The notes under the pieces are model-generated. The model did no database searches, had not been told where the DNA came from, and saw nothing but the letters and a program-made list of their open reading frames with translations. A DNA stretch of 64,000 nucleotides, taken from positions 1 through 64,000 of the forward strand of contig JBBPTG010000110.1 in the NCBI GenBank assembly GCA_038093975.1, read 5' to 3'. Shown here piece after piece: positions 3,879 to 37,420 of this stretch. The first letter of the stretch is position 1, and every line of letters begins with the position of its first letter. The position numbers and the translations under genes were made by a program. The stretch is from Chalciporus piperatus. Its lineage: Eukaryota > Basidiomycota > Agaricomycetes > Boletales > Boletaceae.

Positions 3879-6800
3879 TCATTGTAATATGTAAGTTTCG
3901 GCCTTACCTGTGCGACTCACCGCGCGTGTGGCGCGGAATGTATGTGTTGACATTGCATCTCGAGGATTGATTCCATGTTGGGCATGAAGATCAATGCCAG
4001 ACATTGTTCGCATGTCGTATTGTTGTCCTCGCATGATACCGGCCAGAAGGGTAAGTCCAATACCATCTCTGTTTACATTGCGGTGTGCTTGCTCATTACC
4101 ATTGGTTGTCGAAGGTGAGGCCTTCCAGATGTATGCTGGTATAAGGCTATGGGGTTGGTAGAGAGCAGGGATCATGAACTTGGCGGTTTCTTTGTCTTTC
4201 AACCATGCTATGAGGTGATCAGTGCGTGTTTCTTTTGTAGTTAAAACTTTGTACCACCTACCTATGGCCTTTGGACCCCCGCTGCGAATGGTAGCTAATG
4301 TCTTGTTGAAGTTTGTATGTGGATCTGCTGATGAGATACTGTACATTGCCTCGATCACTGCTGGTTGAAGCTGATGCCTAAGGGGCTGGATATTGCGCTT
4401 GAAGTGAACAATGCAAACACGAAAAAAGCGCCGGAGATGATCATATGGATCAAGGTCTCGGATGGAACGACGAGGCTCAGATCTACATGGCCACCAGTTG
4501 TCCTTGCAAAGCTCTACACAAAATTTGCCAAGTCCTGTGACATATAAGTCTCGAGTAGGATGCCCAAGGAGAGAGGCCTACCTAATGCTTGCCCCCGATG
4601 TCCATCTGCGACGACCGACTCGATGCCAATGCCGTGGATGTGGAAAAAACGTACTGGAACGCCAGTGTCTTGTCTTGCAATTTCAAAAATCCGGCGGAAG
4701 AGGATCACGTGCGCGTCTGCGGATTGCGACGTCGTGAACGCGCGTGCTAAGACGACAGCTGTAGTGATATTAAAATGTCTTCGATCATTGAATGTAAACA
4801 AAACTTACATCTGCTGTGTGTGTTGTTCCAGCCTTCTATTTCGAATTCTTGCCATCCGTGGACTCGCTTGAACGACGTGTCAATCGAGATTCGTCTTGCC
4901 TGAAGCAGGAGTAATGACATTCGGGCCGTCATGCAGATGACGAGCCGGAACTTGTCTTCGCCAGGAATATCATGCTCTTCGACACACCGCAGATAGCGTT
5001 GTTCGAGCGGGAGGCTCTTGTGTTCACCCGCAAGTAACTGGGCACCTGGGTAAGGATTAAGGACCACAGAAAATGAAATATTGATAATCAAACTATACCT
5101 TGAAATCTCGTTCCATGTGGAAAGTTGAAGTTTCGAAGAAGATTAATTAGGCGGCGAAGGTGGTCGAGATTGCCGAGTGACGGGTGGAGATCATGAGGGG
5201 ATGGATCACGTTCATTGTTTATCCAGCCAAGAGCATGTCGAAGGCTGTGCACGAATCCGGAGTCGAGGGCGAGTTTTCGCGGGGTTGCATCAGCAAGCTT
5301 CCAATCGAGGCGTAACAACAGCGAATCAAGAGTGTCGTGTATTTGCGGAGGTGTCTTGATTGGAAGTGGAGGGGAATGGTTATGAGGGTTGGTGGACACA
5401 ATCAGAACTCGAGGGCAACTGCGAAGATCATGGGGGACATAAACATCATATGTCGTCGTGCACTTTCCCACGCCTTTCAATTTGACGAGGGAACCTTGAG
5501 ACAGCGTGTTGTCTGCAGCTCGATGCCAATTCGCTATAAACGAAATTAGAATTTTCAATAAACCAAATGACACTACTCACGACAGTTGTCCTTCTGTTCG
5601 CTCGGAGATGCAGCAAACGAGCAGGGAGCAAGAGGGCCAATCCCGAGTGAACGGGCATAGCTCTCAACTTGTAAATACCACGCGCTGTCATCTTGAAGCA
5701 GCGCGCGGAGGTACGGGATGTCGAATTCTTGCAAATTGCGGAGCAATAGATGGGCCTGCTCGGAGCCCGACGAGCAGTGGTTGGAGCATCTTGCGATGTG
5801 TTGTAAGCACGATGGATGAAAAAAAAAGCGGAGGGACTTACTGTATGTACGGCTGGTTGTAAGTGTCATACCTCAACTCGAGGTGACCACGACACGTTCG
5901 ACTCTTACGCTTACGGCCATTGGTTGACATCTTATCTACACTGTCTACAGGGTCTAGGACAATGTTCTCTTGTTCTATTGTATCACTCGAATCAGGGAAG
6001 TCATCCACAGATGAAAACGCACACCCCTTCTTGACGAGGGCACAAAAGAACCCGAGGGTCTTGTTAAATACCTCGACGTGCGCGTTGTCAATCGGCGCGT
6101 GAACAGTGATGCGTGATGCAGTGGCCTCGTGCGCGAGTGCCTGACGACTCGTGAATGAGTGTGTCATGGGCATAAATGGTCGGAATGAGCAATATCGTAG
6201 TCCCCTACCTGTTAAAGTGCATGTTAGCCTAAATAGTAAAGGAAAATCAATGTAAAAAGACTTACATGTGGTATGAAGCTTCGCACACTTGACAGGTTTA
6301 CCCGATGGGTCACGAAGCATCTTGCACTCAACCTCTTCCCGTCCACCATGTCCATCTCCCAGCGAATACTGGAAGTCGAACCGGGGATGATAGAAGGCAT
6401 CGGGATTGATGTTGAAGATGTGCGCCACTGCAATTGCGGGAGTGGCGCCCGTCTCTGGGTACTCAACAATCGCGTCGAGCGGATGCTCGATGACGCGATG
6501 AGCGATCGTCTCGCGTGTGACCTTGTTTAGGCCCCGACAGATCTCAGTCTCCGTGAATGGGCGCGATGGCAGGGGCTCATACTGTGAGGCGACGACAGCA
6601 GAGGCAGGTGAAGCTGTAGGAAATGGGGAGGGAGAGGGGGAGGGTGTAAATGACAGGGGAGAGGGAGTGAGTCCGAAGAGCGAGGGAGGCGGCGCAAACA
6701 CCTGAGGACCCACTTGTTCGAACGATGGGGCGGAGGGCAGGAACAAGGCATTAGAAGGCGGGAACCATGAGGTAGAGGGTGCGAATGGAGTGGTAGATGG

Positions 6801-19800: not shown

Positions 19801-20229
19801 GTTGTTTGGGCTAGCTGTGCGGATCGTAGCGTATAGGCGACAAATCGGGCTGGGGAGGAAATGGTCTGAGGGGATGGGGCAGATCGATCATGGCTGACGC
19901 GGACGTTTGCCAACCTGTGACGTTGTAGCTCCGCATGTGCGTCCGCGACTCCGCGTTGTGCAAGGCAAGGCGGTCGGCACTTACACGTAAGTTACTCAAC
20001 TACGGAAAGTACGCAATGTCAGTAAACATAGAGAGCACAATTGGAAAGCACCTACGAGGATAAGGTTCTCAGTTCAATGGTATCTCCAGCCTGAGGTTAC
20101 CGCCAAAGAGGCGCTCGCCGTGAGAGCTTGATCAATCCCGTGCGACACCTGTGCCCAGGGCTTCTTTCCGCCCCCGTCCCATCCAGACTAGTACCATCAG
20201 GCAGGATTACAGCACTCAACCATTCACCA

Positions 20230-23200
20230 ATGTCATTCACCATGATCGGGAACATCGAGTTGGAAAGGACTAGGCGGAAGTTCGAGCGATTCCGCGTCCT
20301 CGTTATTGGGCGCGCCAATGCTGGAAAAACCACACTACTCCAGAGGATCTGCAGGACGACCGAGGCCCCGATTGTTCACGATGGCAACGGTAGCAAGGTC
20401 ACTTGATATCCGTCGTCGCTAAGCATAAGAGGGATATTAATCAATCGCCATAGATCAATCTCGATCTGAAAGGAACTCAGGATGTGTGTATTTTTGTGAT
20501 TCCTCCCCTATCTGCTTGACAACCTACAACAGCGCGGCGAGCATGACATTGAGCACGAGATTTCTTTCGAAAGCAACGACCGCTTTGTTTTTCACGATTC
20601 CCGTGGATTTGAAGCAGGTCGAGCGGATGAGCTTCACAAAGTCCAGTCATTCATCAACCAGCGTGCAAAGACTGTGCAACTCTTAGACCGACTTCATGTG
20701 ATATGGTTTATCTGTGTCTATTGATTATTGGATGGATTTCTGATGTCTTGCTATAGGTATTGCATTCCAATGAGTGATGTACGGCCCTTCACTGCTGCAG
20801 AAGAAGTCTTTTTCTCAGAGTGTGGCACAGGAGAGGGTAAGCTACTTGACTTGTCTATTCATTGTCTAACTCGATTATCAGTGCCTGTCATTGTGATTTT
20901 CACCAAGTTTGATGCATTGCATATAATTGCATTTGGTGAACTTCAGGAACAAGGGAAGGGCCTTCAAGAGGCTGTTGCAGAGGCTTCTCAGCATGCAAAC
21001 AAAATATTTCAGGACAACAAATACTTGAATTGGTTGGCTGCAACCAAGTTTCCACCAAAGGGCCATGTCTGTCTTACAAGTGAGTAGCAATGGATTCATC
21101 ATAAGCCTGAATTGGCTGACTAGTATGGGGATGAAGACATGGAAAGAGAAGAGGCTGATTGTACTCACCTAATTTGGTCTACTGCTGCAGCATTGGATGA
21201 TGAAGTATTAGAGTCCTTGCTTGCATCGGCTCAATGCCACAACCTGGAGATGTGTATTACCTATGCAATCAAGAGGTAAGGTGCTTTGAAGGAACATACT
21301 AGTTGACAATAAGTTGAACTTATCCAGGACCTTGAGAAAATATCTAACAAAGGCTGCAGAATCAAACAAGTATCTGGGGCTAGAAGAGAGTTGGGAACTG
21401 CAGCGTCAATTCGCTAGTTGGTTTCCACATATATATGTAAGTCCAATAAATATGAGAGAATTGAGGGAATATTGATAGAAGTTAGGTAAGCAACAAATGT
21501 TCAATTGAACATATGGATATTTCTACTCACAGATTCCATTGCATGTGTCCTGACAGATCGTAAGTTGATGTGATGGTGTCTTTGGATGCATGCTTACTCT
21601 GATCCCATTGCTTGTGTGCTGACAGGATGTAAGCTGATGCCTAATGGCTCTGAATTCATCATTACTCTGATTCTATTGCTTGTGTTGTGACAGAATGTAA
21701 GTTGATGTGATGTTGTTTCTGAATCAATTCTCATTCCAATTCTGTTGCTTGCATCCCAACAGCTTGTAAGTTAATGGTGATGATGTCTCTGAGTTATGCT
21801 CACCCTGATTTCCTTCCTTGTGTCCTGACAGTTTGTAAGTTGATATGATGGTATCTCTGGATGCATGCTCACTCTGAGCTCATTGCTTGTGATTGAACAG
21901 CGAGTAAGTTAATATGATGGTATCTCTGTATGCATGCTCACTTTGATCTCATTGTTTGTGTGCTGATAGGATGTAAGTTAATATAATGGTATTTTTATAT
22001 CCATTCCCACTCTGATCTCACTGCTTGTGTTCTTACAGAATGTAAGTTGATGTGATTGTGTTCCTGTGACCATGTTCACTTTGATCACATTGCCTATGTT
22101 CTGGCAGGATGTAAGTTGATGTGATTGTGTTTCTGTATCCATGCTCACTCTGATTTCAATGCTTGTATGCTGACAGGATGTAAGTTGATGTGATGGTGTT
22201 CTTGAATCCATGCTCACTTTGACCCCATTGCTTGTGTCTGGATAGTGTGTAAGTTGATGTGATGGTATCTATGAATTCATGCTCACTCTGATATCATTCC
22301 TTATGTGCTGACAGTCTGTAGGTTGATCTGATTTTGTCTCTGTATCCATGCTCATTCTGATCCCAATGTTTTTGTCCTCACAGGATGTATGTTGATGTCA
22401 TCATGGCTCTGGATTCATGCTCACTCTGATCCTATTGCTTGTGTCCTGACAGATTGTAAGTTGATGCCATGGTGTCTTTGGATTGATTCTCACTCCAATC
22501 CTGTTGCTTGTCTAACAGTCTGTAAGATGATGTGATGATATCTCTGGATCTATGCTTACTTTGATCTCATTGCTTATGTCTGGACAGTGTGTAAGTTGAT
22601 GTGATGTTATTCATGAATGCATGCTCACTCTGATCATATTCCTTGTATGCTAACAGGAAGTAAGTTAATCTGATGGTGTCTCTGGGCATGTGCTCACTCT
22701 GATCATATTCCTTGTGTGCTGACAGCAAGTAAGTTGATTTGATGGTGTCTCTGGATGTGTGCCTGCTCTGATTACATTGCTTGTATACTAATTTGCTTTT
22801 TTGCAATCTAGTTGGTGAACTCACTTTCTCTCTTTCATTTTCTGTAAACTTTAATCATCTTTTTTCTAGGAGGTAAGCTTATTTTCTGTAGTTTGTTGTA
22901 TTTTTTTGATGAAAATTTTCAATTATTTTCTGTAGCTTTCATACCTTCGTGGACCTCAAGCTCGAAGGCCTCTTCACACAATGGTTGGTCTATCTACTCA
23001 CCAATCATTTAAACCTTTCACTGTTTTCAGTTCCGGACTTCTTCTGTAAAGGAACAGATTGTCTTTGTTGCCTCCTGTAAGTCACATGTTTCATATTTAC
23101 TGTTTTCAAGTCATAGCTATTCACTTGATTTAGCATGCTTGCTTGTATATCAGCATTCCTATTATGCTTGGTATAACAAAACATCTGGCAATCATCTCAA

Positions 23201-23402
23201 AAAGACTTTTGATCAATATGTTCAATCTCCATGTCCTGCTGCTCTATTGCAAGCTCTTCGTCAAGTCTTTTTGACAAATCATAAAAATGTGGATTCTCTC
23301 TGTGATGCTATCTTACAAGTCACCTTACAACATCGCTTGGGTGAGCTAGTCACTTTTCTCTCCAATTTAATTCAAGTTTTGTCTTATAAATTTATTTCAT
23401 AA
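20230..23402 (+). CDS. G-domain GTPase with a 3-nt micro-exon array
   Basis: The gene starts at ATG 20230 (MSFTMIGNIELER). The P-loop GRANAGKTTL is near 20310, G3 HDSRGFEAG near 20600, G4 FTKFDAL near 20905, and a conserved WYCIPM block lies between them. This is the agaricomycete P-loop GTPase family; the cellular role is unknown. Exons to 21436 end WFPHIY in phase 0. Then comes an array of tandem introns with single-codon exons (21486-22935). Downstream exons at 22936-22983, 23031-23076 and from 23134 continue in the same phase to a stop at 23402 (or to about 23479 if an intron is spliced near 23343). One join around 21070-21125 needs a weak donor or hides a frameshift. The 3' half is AT-rich and its C-terminal region (VYQHSYYAWYNKTSG) is not recognised. 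Confidence 0.7.
21486..22935 (+). repeat. Tandem intron array: about 20 introns separated by 3-nt exons (69-bp period)
   Basis: From 21560 to 22725 there are 17 consecutive units. Each has a donor GTAAGT (variants GTAAGC, GTAGGT, GTATGT, GTAAGA), a body with TGATGTGATGG and CTCACTCTGAT, and an acceptor such as GCTGACAG. Intron lengths are 66 nt in 15 units, 65 in one and 63 in one. Between each acceptor and the next donor lie exactly 3 nt, starting at 21557, 21626, 21694, 21763, 21832, 21901, 21970, 22039, 22108, 22177, 22246, 22315, 22384, 22453, 22519, 22588, 22657 and 22726. Two further 3-nt spacers at 22812 and 22870 are flanked by more diverged introns. The triplets are GAT (five times), AAT, TCT, TGT (twice each), and ATC, CTT, TTT, CGA, ATT, GAA, CAA, TTG, GAG once each. 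None is a stop in phase 0. Confidence 0.85.
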
Positions 23403-23815
23403 TCACTAGACTTTTCCAAAATAAAGCCAAGATCTGGCTTTATCCTGAAATTCATCAGATTTTTCAAGATAGCTAAATAGTATTCTACCACCAAAGCAGA
23501 CACTTCAATCTTGGCTCATTTCAATTCTGCCAGTTCATCTTATGATTGATATACTGTACATATGACAATGTTCTCTCTTGCTATGCTGCTTTACTATGCC
23601 CAATATATCTTCCTCTGTTTATTGAAATTGGTTTCAATGACAGCCCTAGGGAAGAGTGTGGGTAACCCTGGGGTATTTTTACTCATACCCTTACCCTGGC
23701 AGGAAAAAGGAAAAGGAAAAATTGATCAACATGAATACTTGACACATGAAATGAAATGAATCTAGATAGCAAGGTACATATTCAGATCAAGACTGCCTAC
23801 GTAGACATTGAAGTG
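23403..23815. other. AT-rich intergenic, no supported gene
   Basis: This lies between the convergent 3' ends of the two GTPase genes. A possible last exon of the plus-strand gene may extend to about 23479. Nothing else was recognised. Confidence 0.4.
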
Positions 23816-26366
23816 TCACGACCTTGTAACACTCGGAACCTCGTTCAACGGCTTGTGGACAGTGTCCACCCAATCCTCATTGTCATCATCTAACCTCAGT
23901 GTTTGCAAGTCCATCTTTCCAATCGCCACATAGTAGTCAGTGGGTGAACTAGCACTCTGGTCGGGAATAATGAGAGATTCGATCAGCTCTAGGGCAGAAT
24001 CCCGTCCGTGCATATCGCGGTACTCTCCAATCTTTCGATGAACCTGTGATCGAAGATCTGATTGGAAGTAAAACTGTACTGCAAAGTTGATAGCCCGTCG
24101 CGTCAGTCGATCGTGATGCCCTGCTGATAGGACGAAGAGAATTTCCATGATGTGCGTGAGATCCACGATGTAGGCGATGAAGTATCGTTGCACGTTCGAA
24201 CTAAATACGCAAAAAATCTTCAATGTTATTCATAAGGGAGGGAAGAGTTTACGCACGCATGTTGATAGGTGAGATAGAGCCATGCAGTGGCTGCTAGACC
24301 GATGATGATAGGGAGGACAATTGGGGCTGCCGGATTCGCAAGCGATGATACGAAAGCGGAGACCGCAGTGACCAATGCACTACCACTCAGAGAGCTGGTG
24401 GAGAGTTACACTTACAACAAGCACAGAGCACGGTGGGGATAAGGCTCACATCATTCCACTAGGCTTTAGAACATTAGACACTTGCACGTCCTTCACTGAC
24501 TCTACAACGAGCTTCATGAATTCATCACTGGTCAGATACTGTATGTATATGATAAGCAATCGATATCGCACGTAGTGAACGTCGACGTACACATTTTGGA
24601 TCATACAGATTCCATACGGCAATGATGTCTTTATGAATGACTTTCAAGCAGTCCCAGATGGTATGACTCGCAAAGTCCGGGCTCGTGCTTAATGCTTTCC
24701 AGTAACCTGAAGATGTGCATGAGTGACGTCTCGCGGGTTCAATTGAATGATCGAACGTTGTTTGCCTACGCTGCGGAGCATGTCAGGTGGCATCACACAG
24801 AGTCGGGGGGGAAACCTACTAAAGGCATCCACGGATCTTGAGTGTGGGATCAACCCGTTGCGCCATGGAAACTACGATGGATGTTTTCCCGGATACCAGT
24901 TCTTCCGTAAGGTTCACTAACTTCATCAGCGTATCCTCGTATCCCGGTTTGGCTTTCATGTTTGGAGCAGAGTCAATAACAGGTTTACTGTAAGTTAGAT
25001 TCCGATCTGCTTACTGGAAATGACAGCGGTTGGGAGAGTTTGCCCCGAGAACTCATGGACGCGGGAAACATAGTTTGTTACGATGCCATTGGCCTCCTTT
25101 CGAGCAAGCGTCGGGAGCGTCGCGTCGTTGGGACCTGTGTGTTCTAGGACTTTCGGCATTAGCAACTCGTTGACCAATGCGTCGTATTTGGTAAACACAA
25201 CGATCATGGGGACTGCGGAAATGAGAAAAGCACTAGGAGCCACTGAGAGGAGACACCCACCATCTCCCAGTATTTCATTCTTTGCCTTGCAGAAATATTC
25301 CGTGGATGCTTCGAGCAGGCGACCACCAGCAAGGGGCACCTGTGTAGTATACCTTCGAAACGACACATCAGAGCACTGTATCGTCATAACAACAGTCATC
25401 CCACCATACGGCATGAAGTCGTCCCTGCGGTGGACTATGTTGCCGCTGGCGAACAAATTGTTTGACGATTTCAAGCTTGTCGTCTTCGCCAGGCTCGAAG
25501 CCAAGCGAGTCATGGAGGACAAACCGAGGGTTGGCCGGTGACGTGATCTCCTCCGTGATTTCGGCCTTGCCCCGCTCAAAATCAGATGCATGCTGAAGGA
25601 GTGCTTTTGAGCGAGACATCGAAAGAAGGTTGGTTCAAACATACCGCCTTGTTGATCCCGAATGCTTTGTTGATCAACGTGGATTTACCTACACCGGTCT
25701 GTTGGGAGCAGTTGAACACACGTCTATGAAGTCGCACAAATACAGTCCCACCTTTCCCACAACTAGGACACGAAAACTTGAGATATGCATTAGCCCCTCT
25801 ATTCCCTGAACCCTTCGTTGAGACGCACCGTCCGCATTCGTCAAGAATGGCGTTGGTTGTAGGCAGGAGACTGGTTACGCTAGCGTCTGGTGACGTCGGC
25901 TGTTCTTTCTGTTCCTGCCCCAAAAATGTGAGCTCAACCTCGTCCTGTGTGACGGATCGTTGTGCTTGATTCTCTCCGCCTTGTGCGGTTGCAAAGAAAG
26001 GCGCGGTATTAATCTTGATTGTTTTGGTTTTCGACGGAGGGAAGATGCGCCGCCACTTTGCATAGGTGAGCCTCAGTTTGACTTTCTGCGATGGGAGTAT
26101 CTCGCTGGCGTGGGATGGTAGCATCGATGGTTACAAGCAAGAAACGGAGACTTACATGGGACGCGGGAAAGATTGATGTAAACTCCCATCGTGACCTGCC
26201 AGTAATCTGTACTGTTCTCCACCAACGTAAAGATCTCCAGACTCAAGGATGGTATTTTTCTGCAATTTGCTTGATACGGATACCGCTGAGAGAACCAAGT
26301 GAGTGCACCAATCTTGGGGAAGGTTGAAGACTCACCCGAGACACGTAGAGGGGAAGACGGGGACAT
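23816..26366 (-). CDS. G-domain GTPase with C-terminal membrane-proximal region
   Basis: The gene starts at ATG 26366 (MSPSSPLRVSG) and has many short introns. N-terminal exons (to about 25790) form a beta-rich region before the G domain. The P-loop VLVVGKTGVGKST is split by an intron near 25690-25745. G3 is RFVLHDSLGFEPG near 25500 and G4 is VVFTKYDAL near 25180. The last exons contain YFIAYIVDLTHIMEILF near 24190-24130, a hydrophobic helix typical of the family tail, and end VPSVTRS at 23816. The family is a lineage-expanded P-loop GTPase of agaricomycetes; function is unknown. It is convergent with the array-bearing GTPase. Its promoter and exon 1 have been duplicated to 18060-18274. Confidence 0.72.
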
Positions 26367-31114: not shown

Positions 31115-33012
31115 ATGCGTTCATCTCTGTTTCTCACTTTTCATCTTTTACCCTCTTCCGAAATGATTCTTCCCAGTGCCATGACTCGTATCATTTTTCA
31201 AGGTACGTGCAACCACTCCATTACGCCTGCGCTGAGACCATCCGTATCGTCGTCTGCTCAAAACGAAGCGAAGACATCCACGGACGAGACCGCTGCCACA
31301 ACGACAGCGAACGCGTCTGTTGACGCCGACGCGAACGAAAACGGACAGGACGACTCACCAACAGATCCCCAAAGCACGTTGCTCCAGGGGGAGATGGTGA
31401 AGTCGAGCGAATCGACGCCAACTTGCTCACGGAGTCGACGTCGACGAGTCTCGACGGACGAGACTGCTGCCACAACGACAGCAAACGCGTCCGTTGATGC
31501 CGACGCGAACGAACACGGACAGGACGACTCACCAACAGATCCCCAAAGCACGTTGCTCCAGGGGGAGATGGTGAAGTCGAGCGAATCAACGCCAACTTGC
31601 TCACGGAGTCGACGTCGACGAGTCTCGACGGACGAGACTGCTGCCGCAACGACAGCAAACGCGTCCGTTGACGCCGACGCGAACGAAAACGCTTCGACTT
31701 CCCTCCCGCCGCAATCAAAGACCGAGATGGAGGGGCCATTAGCCCAAGAAAACGAAGCGAAGACATCCACGGACGAGACCGCTGCCACAACGACAGCGAA
31801 CGCGTCCGTTGATGCCGACGCGAACGAAAACGGACAGGACGACTCACCAACAGACCCCCAAAGCATGTTGCTCCAGGGGGAGATGGTGAAGTCGAGCGAA
31901 TCGACGCCAACTTGCTCACGGAGTCGACGAAGACCAAGGGCGACGACGACGACGAGTCTCGTCGGTCGTGCGCACCCAGTTAACCCCCAGATGAAGTCGA
32001 AGGGGCAGGGAGTCGAGTCGGCAAGGTGAGAAAGTCGGGGAGGGAGTCGAGCGAGTCGAACGATTTTGTGGCATCTTACAAGCGGGTCTGCATTCACGAC
32101 GGTCTCCATGGAGCAACCTAGATCGCCGGGTCCTCAATATGGCATATCTGGGACAACTCAAAGTGAAGTATGATCTGGATAATGAGTTGGCAGAGTTTGG
32201 TTATGTTCGCGGTCGGGGGGAGGAACTTTCAAGAAGCGAGCATGACTATCCGGGCTGTGCGTCGTTCAGGTTTAGTTTGGACTCGGAGCGTGTCAACTGA
32301 CTGAACATCATTTTTGCAGATCCCATGCAGGCATTACTGGGTCCTTATCGTGCAGCGTATCAGCCAGACAAGGAGCTGCGTCGTCGAGTTGTCGTCTACC
32401 TCAAAGCAATCATCGGTGGGCGGGAAGACCAACTCCTGGCCAACTTACCACGAATCATGCCATCATGGTCCAAACTGCGAATCCGCGAGGGTGGGGACAG
32501 AATTCAGACACGCCGCTCCTTGCGAAGCAGGGCGGAGTCACAACGTGATAATACATTCGTGCGTGTAAGTGGCACTCATGCCAGTCCAACAATAGCGATG
32601 TCAACACATACCTACTAACGGTTACAAACAGTATGAAGTATTGTACGAAAGCTTCGCGAACGAAGAGGGATTCATGAAGATCCATTACGGTCAACTTGAA
32701 CAAATCCTTGTTTGCTCCTTTGGTGCCGAGGCTGTGTGGAAACACCTTCGCGACTCCACCTTACTCCTTGCGCTCATCACGCCCGCAAAGACAGATGGTA
32801 CAGACGCAGTGATTACAACACTAACCTTCTCCCAATTCTTAGCCCCCGTCATTACGGATTTGCGGAACATCAAAGCGGGTATTGGGAGAGTGGCGAGTCG
32901 TGAGCATTGGGGTATTATTGACCGCTCTGCAGGGTCAGCGAGAACGAGTTTTGTACCTGATGAAGCTGAGGTGAATCCTGATGGGAAAGACCAGGATGAG
33001 GACCAGGATTAG
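31115..33012 (+). CDS. Unknown multi-exon gene of the CACTG element (rightward)
   Basis: The gene starts at ATG 31115 (MRSSLFLTFHLLPSS). The first exon, to about 32026, is dominated by four tandem repeats of roughly 180 bp. Later exons encode NMAYLGQLKVKYDLDNELAE near 32150, PMQALLGPYRAAYQPDKELR near 32323, SFANEEGFMKIHYGQLEQ near 32650, and a tail TTLTFSQFLAPVITDLRN with an acidic end (DGKDQDEDQD) at 33012. I do not recognise the family. The conserved C-terminal half and open frames suggest a real protein. It is divergently arranged with the other gene of the element. Confidence 0.5.
31265..31930 (+). repeat. Four tandem copies of a ~180-bp coding repeat
   Basis: Each copy encodes TDETAATTTANASVDADAN, followed in most copies by DSPTDPQSTLLQGEMVKSSE and CSRSRRR. 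Copies start near 31270, 31450, 31630 and 31765; the third is truncated. Copies are almost identical at the DNA level, so the expansion is recent. Confidence 0.85.
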
Positions 33013-36459: not shown

Positions 36460-37420
36460 TTGTCCATCGTTAGTATCCGTTGTCCCATCGCATCGTCATC
36501 CCGTCATCTGTCGTTATCGCATCCTCTTCGTCCCATTGTCCCCCTTGTCTTATCGTCCGTTGTTCAGCATCCAGTGTCCATCCCGCGTCATCCAGTCGTT
36601 GTCTCATTGTCGTTGCGTCGTCCATCGTCGTCGTCTTGTCATTCATTGTCGCCATTGTCGTCCCGTCGTGTCCCATCGCATCGTCGCCCTCGTCGTCCCG
36701 TTGCGTTGTGTCGCATTGTCGTCCCGTCGCATTGTCGTCCCGTCGCATTGTCGCCCTCGTCGTCCCGTCGCGTTGTGTCGCATTGTCGTGTCGCGTCGCA
36801 TTGTCGTCCCGTCCCGTCCTGTCGCATTGTCGTCCCGTCCTGTCGCATTGTCGTCCTGTCGCGTCCCGTCGTCATCCAGTCATCGTTGTGTCGTCCATCG
36901 TCGTTGTCTTGTCATTCGTCGTCGCCATTGTCGTCCCGTCGTGTCCCATCGCATCGTCGCCCTCGTCGTCCCGTCGCGTCCTGTCACATCATCGTCGTGT
37001 CGCGTCCTGTCGCGTCCTGTCGCATCGTCGTCCTGTTGCGTCCTGTTGCGTCCTGTCGCATCGTCCTGTCGTGTCCCGTCGCATCGTCGTCCCGTCATCC
37101 GTCGTTATCGCATCCTCTCTGTCCCGTTGTCCCCCTCGTCTTATCGTCCGTTGTCCAGCGTCCATCCCGTCGTCATCCCGTCGTCATCCAGTCGTCGTCT
37201 CGTCGTTCGTCGTTGTCCTCGTCCGCTCGTCTTGTCGTCCGCTCGTTTGCTCGTCTCCTCGTCGATTTGTCCACTCGTCCGTTCGTCCATCCATACGTCC
37301 GTCCGTCCGCCCACTCGTCCTCTTGCGTCCACTCGTTGTCGTCTCGTCGGGTTTGTTCTGTCGTGTTTTTCCTCGCGTTGTCGTTGTCGTGCCCCTTCCC
37401 TGGCACTCTCGATCCCTGTA
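36460..37420. repeat. ~950-bp degenerate GTCGTCCCGTCGC minisatellite
   Basis: Short direct repeats built from CGTCGTCCC, GCATTGTCG and CATCGTC fill the interval. All three plus-strand frames stay open for 330-390 codons because the repeat words lack stops; the peptides are low complexity. I interpret this as a satellite-like tract. It sits in a repeat copy that ends with GGTCACGTGAC near 37546, as in the copies near 34820 and 55305. Confidence 0.75.

Follow-up and report, generated by a model that had tools for sequence, protein, structure and literature searches.

Can a gene add residues to its protein one at a time, by splicing exons of a single codon each? This question is raised by a locus in a 64,000-nucleotide stretch of Chalciporus piperatus DNA (contig JBBPTG010000110.1, positions 1 to 64,000; hereafter the window), where a gene for a P-loop GTPase carries in its middle a tandem array of intron-like units separated by three bases. 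Analysis of this gene, of its paralogues and of related proteins indicates that serial splicing of single-codon exons very probably builds a hypervariable peptide in the GTPase gene. The assessment relies mainly on the constraint observed at the splice sites of one family of paralogues (family A, five loci) and on the inserts found in the relatives.

In the mechanism that we propose, each unit of approximately 66 nucleotides (nt) would be a complete spliceosomal intron, with a GTAAG donor and a CAG or TAG acceptor, and successive removal of these introns in C. piperatus would join the three-base exons in frame, giving a peptide between the GTPase domain and the C-terminal domain. Spliceosomes are unlikely to assemble together on two introns only three bases apart, and because this spacing probably bars simultaneous recognition of neighbouring introns, we infer that removal is stepwise. 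The introns are alike within a family and the codons differ strongly between units, so that the peptide would be hypervariable across paralogues and species, and duplicated blocks of codon plus intron would alter it codon by codon, without frame shift or stop.

Gene model and array anatomy in the window

The window gene consists of seven GTPase exons (20230-21436), 20 three-base exons and four C-terminal exons with a TAG ending at 23480, and the joined model is a single open frame of 424 codons. The joined N-terminal exons match Pfam MMR_HSR1 with 25.3 bits and the protein of the paralogue L009 does so with 26.7 bits (curated cut-off, 21.9). The features of the gene are listed below; the single-codon exons were recognized as an acceptor-NNN-donor series, and the other exons are those of the gene model.

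20230-20397, plus strand, exon 1, start of the P-loop GTPase, with an inferred ATG (the joined exons match Pfam MMR_HSR1)
20454-20483, plus strand, exon 2
20533-20705, plus strand, exon 3
20757-20836, plus strand, exon 4
20882-21079, plus strand, exon 5
21191-21275, plus strand, exon 6
21328-21436, plus strand, exon 7, ending ...WFPHIY in phase 0
21437-21556, plus strand, first intron, 120 nt; the AG|GTAAGC junction inside it, at 21485/21486, may mark a 0-nt exon and is present in 5/5 family A loci
21557-21559, plus strand, single-codon exon ATC (I)
21626-21628, plus strand, single-codon exon GAT (D)
21694-21696, plus strand, single-codon exon AAT (N)
21763-21765, plus strand, single-codon exon CTT (L)
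21832-21834, plus strand, single-codon exon TTT (F)
21901-21903, plus strand, single-codon exon CGA (R)
21970-21972, plus strand, single-codon exon GAT (D)
22039-22041, plus strand, single-codon exon AAT (N)
22108-22110, plus strand, single-codon exon GAT (D)
22177-22179, plus strand, single-codon exon GAT (D)
22246-22248, plus strand, single-codon exon TGT (C)
22315-22317, plus strand, single-codon exon TCT (S)
22384-22386, plus strand, single-codon exon GAT (D)
22453-22455, plus strand, single-codon exon ATT (I)
22519-22521, plus strand, single-codon exon TCT (S)
22588-22590, plus strand, single-codon exon TGT (C)
22657-22659, plus strand, single-codon exon GAA (E)
22726-22728, plus strand, single-codon exon CAA (Q), last in the 69-bp tandem
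22812-22814, plus strand, single-codon exon TTG (L) (TTG here in 5/5 family A loci)
22870-22872, plus strand, single-codon exon GAG (E) (the other four family A loci have AAG, AAG, AAT and ATG here)
22936-22983, plus strand, C-terminal exon a, resuming in phase 0
23031-23076, plus strand, C-terminal exon b
23134-23340, plus strand, C-terminal exon c (also C-terminal domain search)
23410-23480, plus strand, C-terminal exon d, with the TAG end

The three-base exons span 21557-22872, and 18 of the 20 lie inside the tandem array, separated by introns of 63-66 nt. These 17 introns measure 66 nt in 15 cases, 65 nt in one and 63 nt in one, and the 18 array donors read GTAAG in 16 cases, GTAGG in one and GTATG in one. 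Tandem Repeats Finder describes the array of the window as one repeat (21532-22784) with a period of 69, 18.2 copies and 74% matches. The introns flanking the last two exons, TTG and GAG, measure 83, 55 and 63 nt; judged by eye, the start of the 83-nt intron resembles the array unit and the other two introns do not, so that at least GAG is a single-codon exon outside the tandem. The predicted peptide of the array is IDNLFRDNDDCSDISCEQLE, located between ...WFPHIY and LSYLRG.

Much of this anatomy had been anticipated by an earlier reading of the DNA (the original prediction), which placed the array inside a GTPase gene at a phase-0 junction and counted about 20 single-codon exons once the flanking introns were included; the open frame and the Pfam match bear out the former, and the latter proved to be 20. 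The seventeen 69-bp units with 66-nt introns and GTAAG donors that it described hold for most units, apart from the deviating lengths and donors given above, and the tandem array itself is present with copies that are similar, not near-identical as had been stated. The proposed array start at 21486 is a GTAAGC donor, although it stands directly after an AG inside the 120-nt first intron, as it does in all five loci of the sub-family. An AG directly before a donor, as in a recursive splice site with its 0-nt exon, was found only at this first junction, and the array junctions keep their 3 nt.

A non-coding RNA identity of the locus was also considered and was rejected, as positions 20000-24000 gave no Rfam match at the gathering threshold. 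A search of solved structures returned three matches, which are to the P-loop of EngA/Der-type GTPases and give no functional lead.

Eight paralogous loci carry the array

In the 35.5-Mb genome, eight array-bearing GTPase paralogues were found, the window included. Family A comprises the window (contig C110) and loci on C128, C220, C20 and C259, with introns mostly of 66 nt; family B comprises a locus on C229 and two on C122, with introns mostly of 72 nt. The window array, used as a DNA query, gave matches on at least six other contigs, and the eight GTPase loci were found again among the matches listed for the array of the paralogue L013.

The three-unit pattern GTAAG-N46-76-AGNNNGTAAG-N46-76-AGNNNGTAAG has 147 matches in the 35.5 Mb (53 forward and 94 reverse), and a reversed control gave one. 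Inside the eight loci the same pattern has 147 matches, all on the gene strand, and because the totals of each strand agree with the genome-wide ones, all the genome-wide matches are taken to fall in these loci. When the exon length was scanned from 0 to 39 nt in the eight loci, 183 matches were obtained at 3 nt and none at 2, 4, 5 or 6 nt, with seven at 0 nt, three at 1 nt and zero to five at each length above 6 nt. With looser donors, the matches in the window and 12 further loci were confined to the eight arrays (two in the reversed-sequence control, both in the window), and five of the loci searched with this pattern, L016-L020, had none.

The C-terminal domain is present at seven loci, every one of them array-bearing, and the exons following the array re-enter in phase 0 in all seven loci that were read, the last exon of L011 being uncertain. 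Between 13 and 47 units were found per copy, and the largest number is a minimum (at least 47), since the contig of that paralogue ends inside the array. L013, L014 and L015 have an extra three-base exon past the array, and its introns are, by eye, also unlike the array unit. The copy on C220 is without the first GTPase exons. L014 and L015 lie on C122 in opposite orientation, nearly 60 kb apart, with up to 97% identity over 3.7 kb. A GTPase copy on C3 was considered as an array-less "before" state and was rejected, because by eye it breaks off ahead of the array.

Constraint on splice sites and triplets

In order to compare the positions of the unit with one another, units were cut by a profile with the cut point in mid-intron, giving 130 units in family A (five loci) and 94 in family B. 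Although units whose splice signals are intact served to train this profile, it still recovered broken units in L011 and L014, and since the arrays of the window, C128 and C220 are unbroken successions of units, few units of these three can have escaped it. The acceptor AG is present in 130 of 130 units of family A, and the donor GT in 129 of the 129 whose donor could be aligned, a single L011 unit being the exception. Parsimony changes were counted on a tree of the other columns, a kind of tree that recombination between units violates, and on this tree the four splice columns of family A show no change, against a mean of 7.5 over the 64 other columns (five of these 64 likewise show none, one of them being donor base +5). 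The columns of the triplet behave in the opposite way, with 39, 41 and 22 changes in family A, where the highest other column has 20, and 30, 26 and 19 in family B, where the highest other column has 6.

The exon is exactly 3 nt long in 220 of the 224 units (129/130 in family A and 91/94 in family B), whereas 39 of the 213 intron intervals under 100 nt, the range to which this count was restricted, are not multiples of three. There is no stop codon among the 220 triplets, and 10.75 would be expected from the column composition (3.97 in family A and 6.78 in family B); with units treated as independent, the probability of finding none is 0.018 in family A and 0.00087 in family B. If the changes that the trees assign to the triplets are counted instead (60 + 40, or 100 in all), the chance is (61/64)^100, or below 1%. 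The final exon base is C in only 1 of the 220 triplets.

Were the unit that of an ordinary intronic minisatellite, its positions should all evolve alike; they do not do so here, as the GT and AG of family A and the triplets of both families indicate. A plain minisatellite within one intron was rejected on this column-by-column change and on the inserts of the relatives described below. Since the splice dinucleotides of family A are kept, the exon length is fixed at 3 nt and relatives hold a matching insert, the units appear to behave as real introns.

How units and codons change

Whole units have been duplicated in blocks, with 201/201 identical bases in a block of three codons, 279/282 in one of four codons, and 299/303 and 151/151 in two others; these multi-unit duplications indicate that the arrays grow in tandem. 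L009 and L010 have nine units in common at the start of the array and ten at the end, but the 16 and 24 units that lie in between are not co-linear. The family-specific unit lengths, together with the block duplications, suggest that introns are homogenised within families, and exchange within the introns would then move codons without disturbing the frame.

The triplets differ more than the introns that accompany them. Over all pairs of aligned units whose flanks are close, the comparison of L009 with L010 gives triplet differences at 8 of 69 bases and intron differences of 3.0%, and that of L014 with L015 gives 14 of 42 bases and 5.2%. At a body divergence of 0.03-0.06 between units, the divergence of triplet bases is 0.38 in family A and 0.54 in family B. 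Among close pairs with differing triplets, 0 of 85 in family A and 4 of 625 in family B are synonymous, these pairs, like those of the other unit comparisons, not being independent; this near-absence of synonymous change may point to selection acting on the amino acids. The data fit two readings, one in which codon change is selected for and one in which homogenisation affects the introns and spares the codons.

Inserts at the array position in related proteins

The spliced window protein was used to find relatives, and the best 120 of 1097 were taken (E <= 1e-5; 7998 scored candidates). The best matches among these come from Boletus, Imleria, Tylopilus, Pisolithus and Suillus, followed lower down by Serendipita, Phlegmacium, Athelia and others. 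Two later region searches brought the set to 125 with five additional proteins: the search with P0042 gave six proteins including P0042 itself, and the search with P0002 for more transcripts gave P0002 alone. Thirteen of the 125 come from short contigs (jgi/lgn) and 112 are of ncbi source. The unit pattern was also sought in the DNA of viral contigs (3 matches) and genome contigs (305 matches), and none of these was confirmed as a relative.

The 13 short contigs measure 1.06-2.6 kb (P0045, on a small genome scaffold, was excluded from this group); the WFP motif known from the end of exon 7 is present in eleven of them, an insert in ten and the C-terminal motif in eight. Judged from the protein frames only, they are taken to be spliced RNA, because their intron-free frames reach 543 codons and the window member of the family has six introns ahead of its array. 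The ten inserts at the array position, with boundaries set by eye, are 17-71 residues long and hypervariable, with an identity of 26-33% against 54-88% in the flanks (four pairs compared). In residue frequency, the inserts correlate more strongly with the 220 array triplets (Pearson 0.86, Spearman 0.59) than the rest of the same ten proteins does (Pearson 0.37, Spearman 0.36). Array codons and inserts have in common a bias toward D, E, L, R and Y and against K, T and Q, and the residues K, T, Q, M, P, A and C together account for 27 of 220 array codons and 35 of 332 insert residues, compared with 1205 of 3675 other residues. At the level of composition, codons read from the DNA of one species thus resemble the peptides found at the same place in others.

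A separate scan, which accepted the WFP motif beyond residue 140 and thereby dropped P0121 and P0122, was used for the annotated proteins; the motif is present there in 51 of the 112 and absent in 61. The C-terminal motif is lacking in 46 of these 51, and 43 of the 46 end within 40 residues. In 35 of these 46 models, a V with S, R or G behind it stands within 8 residues (VG counted in); V then S or R is what a model running into a phase-0 GT[A/G]AG donor would give, as translation of that donor reads VS or VR. Two stretches of 22 residues in P0081 (Suillus subluteus) and one in P0111 (S. clintonianus) start with V followed by S or R, end with Q and stand beside one or two residues, and are read as translated 66-nt introns. 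One more read-through unit was seen by eye in P0066 (S. cothurnatus). The listing of such units was limited to 19-28 residues containing the letters MLI, which were chosen after first sight.

The expectation of the original prediction that splice signals would be kept, as they would not in an ordinary minisatellite, was upheld by the unchanged GT and AG of family A and by the 147 pattern matches against one in the reversed control, and the comparison with related species that it had called for yielded the ten composition-matched inserts. The seven further paralogous loci, the greater variability of triplets than of introns and the frame-safe block duplications that reshuffle codons go beyond it.

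Observations that weigh against serial splicing

Several observations count against the proposed splicing of the arrays and its diversification of codons. In L012 (C259), long non-unit stretches or insertions interrupt the array at 4406-5485, marking a disrupted copy, and by eye unrelated sequence stands in place of its later C-terminal exons. In L014 (reverse complement, C122), several units at 4107-5331 have broken or GC donors or lost acceptors, which suggests that single units can be lost in some copies. The splice columns of family B show 0, 0, 0 and 4 changes; the body averages 1.9, and 20 of its 67 columns are unchanged. Splice-site constraint is thus not distinguishable there from that of the body, and the evidence of constraint comes from family A, on the recombination-prone tree mentioned above.

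With regard to the codons, all 19 triplets of the co-linear ends of L009 and L010 are identical, at about one intron difference per unit (about 1-2%), and unit pairs with identical bodies differ in their triplet in about 1 of 24 cases in family A, against 46% of 39 in family B. Because identical bodies and co-linear ends keep their triplets, fast point mutation of triplets is not demonstrated in family A. Splice constraint on the last exon base may be a partial source of the synonymous deficit. Among the relatives, the short-contig protein P0109 runs into an apparent intron after the WFP motif, and a clear array-type insert is absent from all five annotated models with a retained C-terminal motif, P0021, P0023, P0115 and P0124 being short at the array place and P0123 resembling intron read-through. 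These five genes may lack an array, or their models may pass over it.

Alternative explanations

Two of the alternatives accept the splicing and concern its consequences. In the first, the single-codon exons are spliced and the arrays grow by unequal exchange, while the codons drift in a tolerated linker, selection acting on splicing and frame only. The block duplications, the middles of L009 and L010 that are not co-linear and the great variation in unit number between copies all agree with such a passenger peptide. Drift alone does not explain, however, why exon bases diverge more than the intron bases of the same unit, and the residue bias common to the relatives also stands against it; we regard this alternative as possible but rather doubtful.

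In the second, different subsets of the single-codon exons would be included, so that one gene would produce many peptides. With 3 nt in 220 of 224 exons, and phase 0 in the gene models, any pairing of a donor with a downstream acceptor would be frame-neutral. However, the long inserts of the relatives point to common inclusion there, and they are evidence for the inclusion of many codons, not for variation in inclusion within a gene. Fungal introns are mostly recognized across the intron, which favours the removal of each 66-nt unit singly. Such a combinatorial cassette appears rather unlikely, to about the same degree as the passenger peptide.

A minisatellite grown inside one large intron, with exon 7 joined directly to 22936 and splice signals that are mere fossils, is highly unlikely. 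The phase is 0 at both ends, so that the frame would be kept if everything were skipped, and four of the five annotated relatives with the C-terminal motif are merely short at the array place. Such an intron would nevertheless measure from 1.5 kb (window) to more than 3 kb, compared with 45-120 nt for the other introns of the gene, and fossil signals do not agree with unchanged splice dinucleotides in family A, with triplets that are the most changeable positions in both families, with the absence of stops in 220 triplets, or with the eight short-contig relatives that hold both insert and C-terminal motif.

Introner-like elements, which are known in fungi (PMC4457414), would account for introns that are alike while codons differ, had they been inserted at the codon boundaries of an ancestral exon. 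They were rejected as the least probable explanation, since the matches listed for the two array DNA searches all lie in the eight GTPase loci, insertion exactly at every codon boundary is implausible and the multi-unit block duplications point to tandem growth.

Relation to known systems and significance

In schistosome micro-exon genes, the coding region consists largely of very small symmetrical exons, and splice variants differ by few residues (PMC4350168). The present gene resembles them in having very small symmetrical exons in its coding region, but its array exons are of one codon, its introns are tandem copies, its product is a GTPase and its coding region consists mostly of ordinary exons, only 20 of the 424 residues coming from single-codon exons. 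In Ncam, Drosophila TnT and Arabidopsis APC11, exons as short as 3 nt and even 1 nt are spliced (PMC8042270; PMC4674806); they occur there singly, whereas those described here form serial arrays of 13-47 units. In a filamentous fungus, Trichoderma Xlr2 has a functional microexon that was missed by the gene model (PMC11121469); unlike the serial three-base exons, it is one exon of 20 nt, not a multiple of three, with a switch role. Recursive splice sites, or ratchet points, have an acceptor directly adjoining a donor and are used in stepwise removal (PMC8605326). The AG|GTAAGC in the first intron of all five family A loci is similar to them, and the array junctions differ in having three coding bases instead of none.

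The closest evolutionary parallel is, by analogy, that of the Podospora het-d/het-e family, whose WD-repeats are tandem units with concerted evolution and diversifying selection on a few hypervariable codons (PMC1805685). There the homogenised part is coding, whereas here it would be the intron and one residue is added per unit. By the same analogy with fungal non-self genes, a recognition role of the GTPase insert may be guessed at. A wider reading, which we put forward tentatively and with some doubt, is that of a diversification system with one residue per exon: interchangeable cassettes of codon plus intron would be used by a GTPase family of several Boletales, possibly also of other Agaricomycetes, recombination in the introns would add, remove or swap residues frame-safely, splicing might omit any subset, and the diversity would be of benefit as a recognition-type repertoire.

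Among the matches listed in open-licence PMC literature, whose titles and abstract starts were covered (a scope that excludes subscription papers and preprints), none described a serial single-codon exon system. Serial single-codon exons with look-alike introns appear to be unlike the splicing arrangements found described, although a stricter reader could call them an extreme variant of micro-exon genes. If the reading is true, the spliceosome of these fungi splices together tens of three-base exons in a row, a challenge to views on minimal exon size where both neighbours of an exon have to be recognized. The arrays would then offer a natural test bed for stepwise splicing, and a gene layout in which single codons could recombine through the introns with the frame kept. 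In many relatives (46 of the 51 annotated models that reach the array place), automated annotation appears to end there, and the hypervariable region may have gone unread in them.

Other features of the window

At 25398-25598, roughly 2 kb beyond the array gene on its downstream side, the minus strand has a more distant GTPase match with 40% identity. Dense overlapping short tandem repeats of the GTCGTCC and GTCGCAT type occupy 36670-37320, and a 174-bp tandem repeat, whose length is a multiple of three, is found at 31280-31691 with 2.4 copies and 96% matches.

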